This document shows, piece after piece, positions 58,746-64,000 of a stretch of DNA of 64,000 nt. Where the stretch lies: NCBI RefSeq assembly GCF_002210345.1, contig NZ_MWQI01000003.1:62001-126000 (forward strand). The letters are read 5' to 3'. The notes under the pieces were generated by a model. That model was not told the DNA's origin. It was given only the letters and a program-made list of their open reading frames with translations, and did no database searches. The first letter of the stretch is position 1, and each line of letters begins with the position of its first letter. The position numbers and the translations under genes were made by a program. This stretch comes from Fibrobacter sp. UWB4. Lineage in GTDB: Bacteria; Fibrobacterota; Fibrobacteria; Fibrobacterales; Fibrobacteraceae.

Positions 58746-59633
58746 ATGGCAAAAATTCTCTTTAAAAAGCAGTTATCTCCCGCGGTATTCCAATTCCGCG
58801 TCCACGCCCCGCTGATCGCGCAAGAACGTAAGGCAGGACAATTTATCATCCTCCAGACGAACAAGGACAATGGTGAACGCGTTCCGCTCACCATCGCTGA
58901 CGCCGATACGAATGAAGGTTCTATCACCCTCATTTTCCAGACGGTTGGCAAGACGACGACCGAACTCTCCAAGTTCGAAGTCGGTGACGATATCCCGGTC
59001 TTGGTTGGCCCGCTCGGTTCTCCGACCCATATCGAAAACTTTGGTCACGTGGTCTGCGTTTGCGGTGGTGTCGGTATTGCCCCGATGCACCCGATCGTTC
59101 AGGCTCTCAAGGCTGCTGGCAACAAGGTGACTATCATCATGGGTGCCCGTAACGAAAGCCTCTTCCTCATGAAGGAAGAAATGACCGCTCTCGCTGACGA
59201 CATCATTTTCATGACCGACGACGGTTCTTATGGCCGCAAGGGTCTCGTGACTGAACCGCTTAAGGAACTCTGCGAAGACACCAAGGGCAAGCCGGACATG
59301 GTCATCGCTATCGGTCCTCCGATCATGATGAAGTTCTGCGCCCTTACCACCAAGCCGTATGGCGTGAAGACTGTCGTTAGCCTCAACAGCATCATGGTCG
59401 ATGGTACTGGCATGTGCGGTGGTTGCCGCGTCACTATCGGCGGCAAGACGAAGTTCGTCTGCGTCGATGGTCCGGAATTCGACGGCCACGAAGTCGACTG
59501 GAACAACATGCTCCAGCGTATGGGTGCATTCAAGCCCCAGGAACAGGAAGCTTTGCATCGCTTCGGTGCAAATGACGGCCACAAGTGCAATATCGACAAG
59601 ATGGCAGATGCCAAGGCTAAGGAGAGCAAATAA
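58746..59633 (+). CDS. Ferredoxin-NADP+ reductase alpha subunit (NfnA/SudB-type)
   Basis: The 295-residue flavoprotein has the FAD site (RVPLTIADADTNEGSITLIF), the NAD(P) site (HVVCVCGGVGIAPMHPIVQA) and the [2Fe-2S] cluster cysteines in GTGMCGGCRVTIGGKTKFVC. With the next gene it forms an NfnAB-type enzyme that couples NADH, NADPH and ferredoxin. The frame extends upstream only through AT-rich spacer, so ATG 58746 is chosen. It overlaps the next start by one base. Confidence 0.9.
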   Translation: MAKILFKKQLSPAVFQFRVHAPLIAQERKAGQFIILQTNKDNGERVPLTIADADTNEGSITLIFQTVGKTTTELSKFEVGDDIPVLVGPLGSPTHIENFGHVVCVCGGVGIAPMHPIVQALKAAGNKVTIIMGARNESLFLMKEEMTALADDIIFMTDDGSYGRKGLVTEPLKELCEDTKGKPDMVIAIGPPIMMKFCALTTKPYGVKTVVSLNSIMVDGTGMCGGCRVTIGGKTKFVCVDGPEFDGHEVDWNNMLQRMGAFKPQEQEALHRFGANDGHKCNIDKMADAKAKESK

Positions 59634-61132
59634 TGTCTGAACATATGACTCGCGAACAGTTGGACGCCGCCGCCAAGGTGGAACTTGAAAAGATTAATGC
59701 CCTTCCGAAGCCGCTCAAGCCGAAGGACAAGACTGCTATTCCGGCTCAGCCGATGCCGCAGCTCGAACCGTCCTATCGCGCACGCGTGATGGAAGAAGTG
59801 GCTCAGGGTTATACCGAAGCTCAGGCTATCGTCGAAGCTAACCGCTGCCTTAACTGCAAGAAGCCGTTCTGCGTCGAAAGCTGCCCGGTGCACATCGACA
59901 TTCCGGCCTTCATCGCAAAGATTGCTGAAGGCGACTTCAAGGCTGCTATTGCAAAGATTAAGGAAACGAGCTTGCTTCCGGCAATCTGCGGCCGCGTTTG
60001 CCCGCAGGAACGCCAGTGCCAGATGAACTGCACGATGGGCAAGATGCACAAGGATGTGAACCAGGCTGTCGCAATCGGTCGTTTGGAACGCTTTGCTGCT
60101 GACTATGAACGCAACAACGGTGGTGCTACGGTTCCGGCCGTTAAGCCTGCTACGGGCAAGAAGGTGGCTGTGATCGGTTCCGGTCCTGCCGGCTTGGTTG
60201 TCGCTGCTGACGTCCGCCGCGAAGGCCACGACGTGACCATCTTCGAAGCTTTCCACAAGCTCGGTGGCGTGGTCCGTTATGGTATTCCTGAATTCCGTCT
60301 TCCGAAGAAGATTGTGGACAAGGAAATTGAATCTCTCGCCGCTATGGGCGTGAAGTTCGAAACGAACTTTGTGATTGGTCGTACCCGCAAGCTCAAGGAC
60401 CTCATCGAAAAGGATGGCTTTGACGCTGTGTTCGTCGGTACCGGTGCTGGTCTTCCGTTGTTCATGAACATCGAAGGTGAAAACCTCGTCGGTGTGTTCG
60501 CAGCTAACGAATACCTCACCCGCGCAAACCTCATGCGCGCCTACGACAAGGAAAATGCCGATACGCCGATGTGGCCGGGCAAGAACGTTGTCGTCCTCGG
60601 TGGTGGTAACGTCGCTATGGACGCTGCCCGTATGGCTCTCCGCCTCGGTGCAGAAAAGGTCCGCATCATTTACCGTCGTAGCATGAACGAACTTCCGGCC
60701 CGTAAGGAAGAAGTTCTCCACGCTCAGGAAGAAGGTGTCGAATTCTGCGTCTTGCAGAACCCGGCCAAGATTCTTGGCGACGAAGCCGGTCACGTCCGTG
60801 GCATGCTCGTTGACAAGTACGAACTCGGCGAACCCGATGAAAAGGGCCGTCCGCGTCCGGTCAAGGTCGAAGGCGCAAGCTTCGAAATTGAATGCGACAC
60901 CGTGCTCGTTGCTATCGGTAACGGTTCCAACCCGCTTATCAGCAACACCACTCCGGAACTCTCCGTTGACAAGAAGGGTCACATCCTTCTCGAAGATGCA
61001 ACCGCCAACAAGACTTTCATGGAAAAGGTCTATGCCGGTGGCGACATCGTGCTCGGCGCTGCAACCGTGATCCTCGCCATGGGCGAAGGTCGTCGTGCTG
61101 CTGCAGGCATCAACGAATTCCTCAAGAAGTAA
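59633..61132 (+). CDS. NADPH-dependent glutamate synthase small-chain-like / NfnB subunit
   Basis: The 499-residue protein has N-terminal [4Fe-4S] ligands (CLNCKKPFCVESCPVHIDIP, CGRVCPQERQCQMNC), an FAD site (VAVIGSGPAGLVVAADVRRE), an NADPH site (VVVLGGGNVAMDAARMALRL) and the final AGGDIVLGAATVILAMGEGR. No large glutamate synthase subunit is nearby; the preceding NfnA-like gene makes the bifurcating transhydrogenase role more likely. Confidence 0.9.
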   Translation: MSEHMTREQLDAAAKVELEKINALPKPLKPKDKTAIPAQPMPQLEPSYRARVMEEVAQGYTEAQAIVEANRCLNCKKPFCVESCPVHIDIPAFIAKIAEGDFKAAIAKIKETSLLPAICGRVCPQERQCQMNCTMGKMHKDVNQAVAIGRLERFAADYERNNGGATVPAVKPATGKKVAVIGSGPAGLVVAADVRREGHDVTIFEAFHKLGGVVRYGIPEFRLPKKIVDKEIESLAAMGVKFETNFVIGRTRKLKDLIEKDGFDAVFVGTGAGLPLFMNIEGENLVGVFAANEYLTRANLMRAYDKENADTPMWPGKNVVVLGGGNVAMDAARMALRLGAEKVRIIYRRSMNELPARKEEVLHAQEEGVEFCVLQNPAKILGDEAGHVRGMLVDKYELGEPDEKGRPRPVKVEGASFEIECDTVLVAIGNGSNPLISNTTPELSVDKKGHILLEDATANKTFMEKVYAGGDIVLGAATVILAMGEGRRAAAGINEFLKK

Positions 61133-61156
61133 TTGGTGATATCCTTCGCGAGTCTC

Positions 61157-61266
61157 GTCATCCTGAGCAAAGCGAAGACAACTCAGAAGGCGAGCGTCGC
61201 GACCATGCTTGCATGGGCATGACCGAGCCAAGGAGTTGGGGCTTGCCCCATCCAGTTAAATCTTGA
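61157..61266. repeat. Dispersed compound repeat, long form
   Basis: GTCATCCTGAGCAAAGCGAA, AAGGCGAGCGTCGCGACCAT, GAGTTGGGGCTTGCCCCATC, CAGTTAAATCTTG: the same block order as at 3003, 4397 and 28837. Confidence 0.75.
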
Positions 61267-61280
61267 ATCGCATTATGCAA

Positions 61281-61311
61281 AAAGAGGACGGTTTCATAAC
61301 CGTCCTTTTTG
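61281..61311 (+). terminator. Rho-independent terminator behind the NfnAB-type operon
   Basis: Stem GGACGGTT / AACCGTCC with TCAT loop and TTTTTG tail. Confidence 0.88.
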
Positions 61312-61372
61312 TCATTTTACTGTCAAGAATTAAATGTATATTTGAGAGAGATAGTAGGAACGGAAATCATTT

Positions 61373-62209
61373 ATGGCGAAGAAGAATCAATCGGGACGTT
61401 TGACTGACCAGCATAAAGATTCCAAAGGTGCTGTTGGCATTTTTGGAGATGAAGCTAAGTATCATGATATGGATGTTTCTGATTTATCCCTTATCGCAAT
61501 GCAGCTTCTAGAAAAGGATTATCCGCAACTTCTTTTCCGGTATCGAAAGAGTATTTCTAAAAAGGAAATAAACGAAGCTCTTCAAAAAATTGATAGTGAA
61601 TTAGGTCAAACTCTTTTTGTTGAAGATTCTAGCATTAAACCTGATGGTGGTATTATTGAAGTTAAGGATGATAATGGAAAATGGCGTGTCGTTTTGGTTT
61701 CTGAGGCAAAACGTCAAGGAAAAGATATTGAGAATATAAAACAAGGTAAATTAGTAGGTACGAAAAATGATCAAGATATAATGAATGCGGGGAATGCGAT
61801 TGAACGTGCTCATAAGAATATATCTGAAATTGCAAATTATATGTTGGACGAAGCGTATTTCCCATATGTTCTATTTTTGGAGGGGTCTAACTTTTTAACA
61901 CAGGATGTTGTTGTGACTAGACCTGATGGAAGGTCTGTTACCTTGACTTACAATTCGGGTGCTATTAATAGGCTTGATCGTTTGACCGCTGCGAATTATG
62001 GAATGCCTATCAATAAAAATCTTTGTAAAAATAAAATGATTCAAATTGGTGATGCTTGTGTTATGCTTCAGACTGCATCTCTCTTCACTCAAGGTGATGG
62101 TCGACGTTGGAGCATCAAAGATGAAATTAAGATTATGCTTGATGTTGCGAAAACATCTTTGAAAATGCTTGGACGAGACTTGTTTAATCAATTGACGAAA
62201 TCGAATTAG
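61373..62209 (+). CDS. EcoRI-type restriction endonuclease (predicted G^AATTC)
   Basis: The 278-residue enzyme aligns with EcoRI from end to end without gaps in the core. The catalytic residues keep EcoRI numbering: P90-D91 in SIKPDGGIIEVK, E111 and K113 in VSEAKRQGKD. The recognition segment AGNAIERAHKNISEIAN and NRLDRLTAANYGMPIN are nearly unchanged. It should cut GAATTC. The gene is more AT-rich than its neighbours, which suggests transfer. It lies 10 bases before its methyltransferase. Confidence 0.95.
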   Translation: MAKKNQSGRLTDQHKDSKGAVGIFGDEAKYHDMDVSDLSLIAMQLLEKDYPQLLFRYRKSISKKEINEALQKIDSELGQTLFVEDSSIKPDGGIIEVKDDNGKWRVVLVSEAKRQGKDIENIKQGKLVGTKNDQDIMNAGNAIERAHKNISEIANYMLDEAYFPYVLFLEGSNFLTQDVVVTRPDGRSVTLTYNSGAINRLDRLTAANYGMPINKNLCKNKMIQIGDACVMLQTASLFTQGDGRRWSIKDEIKIMLDVAKTSLKMLGRDLFNQLTKSN

Positions 62210-62219
62210 AGGGTTCTGT

Positions 62220-63176
62220 ATGGTTCGAAAAATTGATCATTCCTTGTTGGATAAAGCTAAGATTAACAAAAAAGATGAATTCTATACTCAACTTTCAGAT
62301 ATTGAGAGGGAATTGCAGTATTATAAGAAGCATTTTAAGAATAAAACTGTTTTTTGCAATTGTGATGATGCTCGAATTAGTAATTTTTACAAATATTTTG
62401 TAGAAAATTTTAAATCATTGGGCCTGAAAAAGGTTATTTGTGCGTGTTACAAAAAAGTCGATTTCGAAGAATCTTTGAAATCGAAATCCGCATTTTACTA
62501 TGAATATACGGGGATAGAAAAAAAACGTCCATCATTGAAAGATGTGACTTATTTTGAAGGTGATGGTGATTTTCGTAGTAAAGAAAGTATAGATCTTTTA
62601 AAAAAATCGGATATTGTCGTTACAAATCCTCCATTTTCGTTGTTTAGGGACTTTATTTCACAGTTAGATAAATTCAAAAAAAAGTTTTTGGTTATTAGTA
62701 ATATCAATGCGATTACCTATAAAGAGGTTTTTGCTTTGATAAAGGAAAATAAGGTTTGGATGGGTGTAAACATGGGACGAGGTATATCTGGTTTTATCGT
62801 TCCCAAACATTATGAACTCTATGGTCTTGAAACGAAAATAAATGATTTAGGTGAAAGAATCGTATCTCCCAATAACTGTATGTGGCTTACAAATCTCGAT
62901 AATGCGCAAAGACATGAGTTTATTCCATTGACTAAGGAATACAACGGTAATGAACGCGATTATCCTCGTTTTGACAATTATGATGCGATTAATGTGAATA
63001 AAACACAAGATATCCCTGTGGATTATAAGGGAATTATGGGCGTTCCCATAACATTCCTTCATAAATTCAATCCAAACCAATTCAAAATCATCAAGTTCCG
63101 CAAGGGGGATGATGATCGGGATTTGGCTATTAACGGTAAACCGACTTATTTTAGAATTTTGATTCAGGGCTGCTGA
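62220..63176 (+). CDS. EcoRI-type adenine-N6 methyltransferase
   Basis: The 318-residue enzyme resembles M.EcoRI over its length: KKDEFYTQLSDIERELQYY, FCNCDDARISNF, the catalytic NPPF in VVTNPPFSLF (N136-F139), GISGFIVPKHYELYG and YDNYDAINVNKTQDIP. It should methylate the second A of GAATTC and protect the host. One GAATTC lies inside its own gene (62277). It is AT-rich like the nuclease gene; GAGGGTT precedes the start. Confidence 0.95.
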   Translation: MVRKIDHSLLDKAKINKKDEFYTQLSDIERELQYYKKHFKNKTVFCNCDDARISNFYKYFVENFKSLGLKKVICACYKKVDFEESLKSKSAFYYEYTGIEKKRPSLKDVTYFEGDGDFRSKESIDLLKKSDIVVTNPPFSLFRDFISQLDKFKKKFLVISNINAITYKEVFALIKENKVWMGVNMGRGISGFIVPKHYELYGLETKINDLGERIVSPNNCMWLTNLDNAQRHEFIPLTKEYNGNERDYPRFDNYDAINVNKTQDIPVDYKGIMGVPITFLHKFNPNQFKIIKFRKGDDDRDLAINGKPTYFRILIQGC

Positions 63177-63299
63177 ATATTTGAATTTTTCCTGTATTTT
63201 CTACCTCCATTCCTTTTTGTCAATTCTTCCTTTTTTGTGACATCGCCTTTTTGCGAATCTTTTGATTATATTCATAGTGGGGGTATTTAAGGAGATGTT

Positions 63300-64000
63300 A
63301 TGGTTCAATCAAAATTTTTTGGAATTGCCTGTGGCGTAGCGATGCTTGCAGGTGCAGTTTCTGCAGCGACTCTTCCGACCGCAAAGGATGTTCAGGCCAA
63401 GATGGGCATGGGCTTCAATATCGGTAACTCGATGGAAGTGCCGAACAACCCGACCTTGTGGGGCAACCCTTACCCGACTCAGGCTTTGCTGGATTCCGTG
63501 AAGGCGGCGGGCTTCAATACGGTGCGCATTCCTTGCGCTTGGGATAGCCATACGAGTGGCGGCAAGGTCACCGAGACTTGGCTCGATTCCGTGAAGACGG
63601 TTGTCGATTACGCCATGCGCGCTGGTCTCTACACGATTTTGAATATCCACCATGAAGGTGAAGGCGGCTGGTTCCAGAGCAACATCGGCACGAGCGTTGA
63701 TAACACTATCGACAACAAGATGAAAACTTACTGGACGCAGATTGCGAACAAGTTTAAAAACTACAACGAACGCTTGCTCTTCGCCGGCGCAAACGAACCT
63801 GGCCCGAATGTGAATACGTGGACCTCGCAGCATGTGTCTACGCTTATGCATTACTATCAGACGTTCATTGATGCTGTCCGCGCTACGGGCGGCAACAACG
63901 AAACCCGAACCTTGATTATCCAGGGCCTCAATACTGACATCGACAAGTCCGTCGCAAGCGCTCCGGTAAGCACCTTCCCGAAGGATAAGGTCGAAGGTCG
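63300..64000 (+). CDS. Secreted GH5-type cellulase/endoglucanase, 3' end cut by the window
   Basis: The first 233 residues of a secreted glycoside hydrolase are present: a signal peptide (IACGVAMLAGAVSAA), then the GH5 start MGMGFNIGNSMEVPNNPTLW, TVRIPCAWDSH, the IHHEGEGGWF block and the acid/base glutamate in LLFAGANEPG (E166). The nucleophile and any binding modules lie beyond the window. AAGGAGATG precedes ATG 63300. It belongs to plant-fibre breakdown, the main way of life of Fibrobacter. Confidence 0.9.
   Translation, partial: MVQSKFFGIACGVAMLAGAVSAATLPTAKDVQAKMGMGFNIGNSMEVPNNPTLWGNPYPTQALLDSVKAAGFNTVRIPCAWDSHTSGGKVTETWLDSVKTVVDYAMRAGLYTILNIHHEGEGGWFQSNIGTSVDNTIDNKMKTYWTQIANKFKNYNERLLFAGANEPGPNVNTWTSQHVSTLMHYYQTFIDAVRATGGNNETRTLIIQGLNTDIDKSVASAPVSTFPKDKVEG

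Follow-up and report, generated by a model that had tools for sequence, protein, structure and literature searches.

The locus raises two questions: whether two adjacent open reading frames on a Fibrobacter chromosome encode an equivalent of EcoRI and its methyltransferase, and how such a pair came to lie beside a cellulase gene. The window, meaning the whole 64-kb stretch of DNA that was analyzed, was found to hold what is almost certainly a complete type IIP restriction-modification pair of the EcoRI family, which would cut and protect GAATTC and would have arrived here as a solitary cassette. The first frame (61373..62209, + strand) encodes an EcoRI-family type II restriction endonuclease (R) of 278 aa. 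Residues 1-276 were aligned to the solved EcoRI structure 2oxv (phmmer, E = 4.1e-122), and PF02963 (EcoRI) was covered from end to end (Pfam, positions 1-257 of 257, 2e-132). The second frame (62220..63176, + strand) encodes an M.EcoRI-family adenine-specific DNA methyltransferase (M) of 318 aa, which matched positions 2-305 of 345 in PF13651 (EcoRI_methylase; Pfam, 6.1e-121). Chance ORFs as the origin of both frames were ruled out by these phmmer and Pfam matches. The proteins matched no NCBIfam family at E 0.001, and the methyltransferase no PDB relative by sequence at the same threshold; PADLOC likewise classed the two as type II R and M. The reading frames of both genes are open and apparently intact, with 10 nt between the R stop and the M start on the same strand. 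The preliminary description had proposed an EcoRI-type pair in the EcoRI order, nuclease before methyltransferase, and its coordinates, frames and gene order were all borne out. The EcoRI pair of an E. coli plasmid (NZ_CP103650.1, L110) is of the same family and shares the R-then-M order, the close spacing, and the catalytic and recognition residues, with identities of ~67% for R and ~65% for M. That pair is plasmid-borne, whereas the Fibrobacter pair is chromosomal and solitary, and the Fibrobacter methyltransferase is 8 residues shorter than its 326-aa plasmid counterpart.

Catalytic D91, E111 and K113 of the endonuclease are numbered as in EcoRI in the alignment to 2oxv, and with Q115 were invariant in 22/22 aligned homologous nuclease rows, as were the residues of GAATTC recognition and contact (M137, G140, N141, A142, E144, R145 and K148). 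R200 and R203 were invariant in all 20 rows that reach these positions (alignment n = 22). Catalytic residues at identical positions had been claimed for both proteins; this held for the three nuclease residues but not for the NPPF motif of the methyltransferase, which stands at residue 136 and aligns with residue 140 of the E. coli plasmid enzyme. M137, N141, R145 and R200 are named for EcoRI recognition, and P90, D91, E111 and K113 for its catalysis, in PMC11755562. EcoRI residues H114, A138, E192, I197 and L198 are replaced by R114, N138, T192, A197 and I198 in the Fibrobacter enzyme. The substitution E192K relaxes EcoRI specificity, and no conclusion here rests on it. As the recognition residues are invariant and positions 114 and 138 differ from EcoRI, GAATTC specificity is expected and fidelity could differ. 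On these alignments the endonuclease is most likely to cut unmethylated GAATTC (G/AATTC), its cleavage fidelity could differ from that of EcoRI through R114 and N138, and the methyltransferase is most likely to methylate an adenine in GAATTC.

Two readings of the pair's function compete with this prediction. In one, the enzyme has some other site in place of GAATTC, or its cleavage at GAATTC is markedly relaxed in specificity: R114 and N138 were found together in 4/4 Fibrobacteraceae nuclease rows and 0/18 others (alignment n = 22), and in EcoRI itself star activity is raised in the A138T mutant and H114 has a part in both recognition and catalysis (PMC11755562). The direct recognition residues are all unchanged, however, and positions 114 (H, F, V, Y or R, with Y114 in 3 rows) and 138 (A, V, N, P or S, with V138 in 4 rows) vary freely among natural homologues; altered specificity is judged very improbable. 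In the other, the window genome retains the methyltransferase as an orphan, with its nuclease inactive. A parallel is offered by a further member of the Fibrobacteraceae, G018, in which the nuclease lacks ~340 nt internally and the methyltransferase is open. Moreover, the PF13651 family occurs in 28/111 genomes of the family, so that most of those methyltransferases are either partners in other systems or orphans, against 5/150 relatives with the EcoRI nuclease family, the genome of the window (G000) counted (full length in G000, G035 and G088, shortened in G018, fragments only in G067). The window nuclease, in contrast, is full length, has its catalytic and recognition residues intact and shows low pN, which leaves an orphan methyltransferase very improbable here.

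Several GAATTC sites had been noted in the window, and 32 were counted against 33.9 expected. Avoidance of GAATTC in the window, sought as a sign of long residence, was therefore not seen, and no genomic trace of prolonged pressure from restriction is evident, which is in keeping with a recent arrival and does not prove activity. The whole genome (3.58 Mb) contains 1866 such sites, so that an active nuclease would kill the host unless the methyltransferase were active too. By analogy with the known EcoRI mechanism, it can soundly be inferred that host GAATTC is methylated, provided that the nuclease is both produced and active. Phage or plasmid DNA entering the cell would then be cut at unmethylated GAATTC, and the host's own sites would be protected by the methyltransferase.

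The two genes probably form one transcription unit, which would be transcribed from a conserved leader a short distance 5' of the endonuclease gene (TTTTTGTCATTT ... AAATGTATATTT, 61306..61350, + strand). The leader is common to 4/4 Fibrobacteraceae cassettes, at four different loci, and we infer that it is probably the promoter of the pair. A consensus promoter scan gave 7 matches against 7.0 in shuffles. E. coli EcoRI is described as having intragenic M promoters and antisense promoters inside R (PMC3874152).

The pair had been described as AT-rich and as lying between a terminator and a GH5 gene, and both observations were upheld. GC was 0.28-0.36 in the pair region against 0.53-0.57 to its left, and third-position GC was 0.27 for R and 0.31 for M against 0.64 and 0.65 for the two flanking genes. 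The left flank of the insertion spot is an NAD(P)-dependent oxidoreductase resembling the glutamate synthase small subunit (59633..61132, + strand; Pfam Fer4_20, Pyr_redox_2), followed by an intrinsic-terminator-like hairpin (61281..61310, + strand; 13 pairs, 4-nt loop, T run), for which position is the main support, as terminator-like sites were about equally frequent in shuffles. The right flank is a GH5 cellulase gene cut by the window end (63300..64000, + strand; Pfam Cellulase, 1.3e-45). Between the oxidoreductase gene and the hairpin, at 61150-61270, is a dispersed repeat of ~110 bp that has many copies in the genome and in those of its genus mates.

The left flank was searched in 80 genomes of the genus and matched in 80, some through the dispersed repeat only; the right flank was searched in the same number and matched in 72, many via other GH5 genes. 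Both flanks together were found in 13 Fibrobacter genomes, own genome included. In 9/13 (G013, G046, G044, G005, G072, G074, G052, G062 and G043) the matched flanks are separated by 47-263 bp alone, and these empty sites include those of G013 and G046, whose flanks come closest to the window's in identity (97% in the upstream gene). Because close relatives lack the insert, the residence of the pair at the window locus looks recent. Other inserts of ~2.3-3.7 kb occupy the oxidoreductase-GH5 gap in 3/13 (G076, L095; G001, L096; G050, L097), with lipoprotein-like genes and a DUF4423 protein as cargo, and a PDDEXK_2 protein in G076. As its contents differ among Fibrobacter genomes, the gap is a variable spot. 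Carriage of the pair by a plasmid or prophage at the window locus was ruled out, the empty-site comparison showing that the insert is the pair only.

The insert is bounded by two copies of a 12-bp direct repeat, TCCTTTTTGTCA, on the + strand at 61303..61314 and 63211..63222, which stand 1908 nt apart. The 12-mer has 3 copies in the 3.58-Mb genome, 2 of which flank the insert, and its reversed control pattern has 2; the third copy lies at G000:C9:122150-122161. A copy of TCCTTTTTGTCA is found at the matching place in relatives' empty sites, e.g. G043, G013 and G046, and in G043 this single copy stands 3' of that site's own terminator-like hairpin. A solitary cassette of ~1.9 kb without a mobility gene probably reached the gap between the terminator and the GH5 promoter region, with a short shared sequence, TCCTTTTTGTCA, as the likely point of entry. 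Restriction systems moving into genomes with target duplications are established (PMC3031569).

The distribution of empty sites could also be read as a single ancestral gain at the oxidoreductase-GH5 spot, with the pair lost by most descendants and the empty sites left as deletions. A more distant congener, G067 (L092, G067:C26), retains only a disrupted nuclease fragment, residues 160-217 in two frames, ~300 nt after the same upstream gene and in the same orientation as the window pair. To account for it at the same spot, a cassette must have been gained there twice, or gained once and then lost several times; the fragment is a complication and speaks against one simple, recent gain in the lineage of the window genome. 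The direct repeat does not by itself distinguish gain from loss, because one copy would remain after a deletion between the pair of 12-bp repeats. Against ancestral gain, the intervals in G013 and G046 are short, clean and free of remnants, 7 further genomes are likewise short, and a spot that takes other cargo in 3/13 makes repeated independent gain plausible. Ancestral gain followed by losses is accordingly held to be rather unlikely, and a recent arrival of the cassette at this spot is preferred.

Homologous cassettes were found in three further Fibrobacteraceae (G035, G018 and G088), each beside different genes, and the sequence common to the window copy and these three extends only from TTTTTGTCATTT through the methyltransferase stop codon. 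Empty counterparts were found for three cassette loci, those of the window, G035 and G018: in relatives of G035 ~2.0 kb is replaced by 75 bp (G008) and 61 bp (G053), and in relatives of G018 ~1.6 kb by 48 bp (G046) and 188 bp (G043). No copy of TCCTTTTTGTCA was seen in the stretches examined of the right flanks of G035, G018 and G088, which excluded the direct repeat as a constant feature of the cassette; a microhomology or repeat route is supported at the window locus only.

The pairs of Fibrobacter intestinalis ATCC 43854 (L007; G088) and of G035 are 86% (R) and 85-86% (M) identical to the window pair and share its leader and its R114 and N138, but each lies at a different chromosomal locus and synonymous sites are saturated relative to the window copy. 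Between the window copy and G035, G088 and, for M only, G018, pS was 0.75-0.87 per site (saturated) and pN 0.07-0.08 for R and M. Between G035 and G088, dN/dS was 0.026 for R and 0.036 for M. Both genes are under purifying selection and the proteins have been kept. Because synonymous differences from G035 and G088 are saturated, the cassette is old within the Fibrobacteraceae, and only its residence at the window spot looks recent. The recent arrival put forward in the preliminary description can thus be retained at the level of the locus, where 9/13 sites are empty, but not for the cassette, which is not new to the family.

For the phylogeny, the full R tree comprised 20/22 R rows, L020 and L103 having been dropped as partial, and the full M tree 12/12, and restricted R and M trees were built from the 11 loci at which both genes are present. 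The Fibrobacteraceae pairs form one group in both the R and the M tree. Their neighbor in both 11-locus trees is the roe-deer reticulum MAG L008; no neighbor of the group was resolved in the full R tree of 20 rows. Within the R tree, G035 and F. intestinalis G088, which belong to different genera, group together to the exclusion of the window genome (support 97/96), which is as expected under intergenus transfer. The trees are congruent and R and M travel together, and no partner mismatch was seen in the cognate pair, the two 11-locus trees agreeing on the Fibrobacteraceae group and its neighbor. Among plasmid records (n = 72,556), 19 matched the nuclease and 77 the methyltransferase; among phage records (n = 50,697), the nuclease was found in 1 (partial) and the methyltransferase in 13.

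The pair is ordinary in kind, and EcoRI-like genes in Fibrobacter have been in print since 2018, when Fibrobacter R and M were placed among EcoRI-like enzymes in trees (PMC5896346). The same source describes LraI of Lactococcus raffinolactis and its EcoRI-like group, a GAATTC isoschizomer family like the window pair. The Fibrobacter R and M were put in different branches there, whereas the trees for the window's cognate pair agree; it is possible that the discordance is due to a different PF13651 protein having been used in that study. A search for literature on a Fibrobacter succinogenes restriction endonuclease and DNA modification found none.

A Fibrobacter strain with the pair could be expected to destroy any DNA carrying GAATTC in unmethylated form, a practical point for the transformation of these fiber degraders. 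With empty sites at three loci, the cassettes also offer a natural example of a restriction-modification pair arriving alone and not on a recognizable mobile element, and a stepwise example of decay, from the damaged nuclease of G018 to the lone fragment of G067. We tentatively suggest, as a possibility that is still doubtful, that the Fibrobacteraceae EcoRI pair is a minimal mobile unit of ~1.9 kb (leader and two genes, no transposase or integrase), which enters different intergenic gaps, at least once via a short shared sequence, decays nuclease-first, and carries lineage-specific R114 and N138 at positions that tune EcoRI fidelity.

Outside these cassettes, EcoRI-family nucleases were also seen beside a methyltransferase not of the M.EcoRI family, at L009:5857-6837, L010:5846-6817, L014:497-1462, L018:4026-4979, L021:4058-5023 and L113:1417-2352. 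The partner in L010 was assigned to Pfam N6_N4_Mtase, and those at the other five loci are similar by eye. With a partner of another family at six loci, the nuclease has undergone at least one switch of partner.
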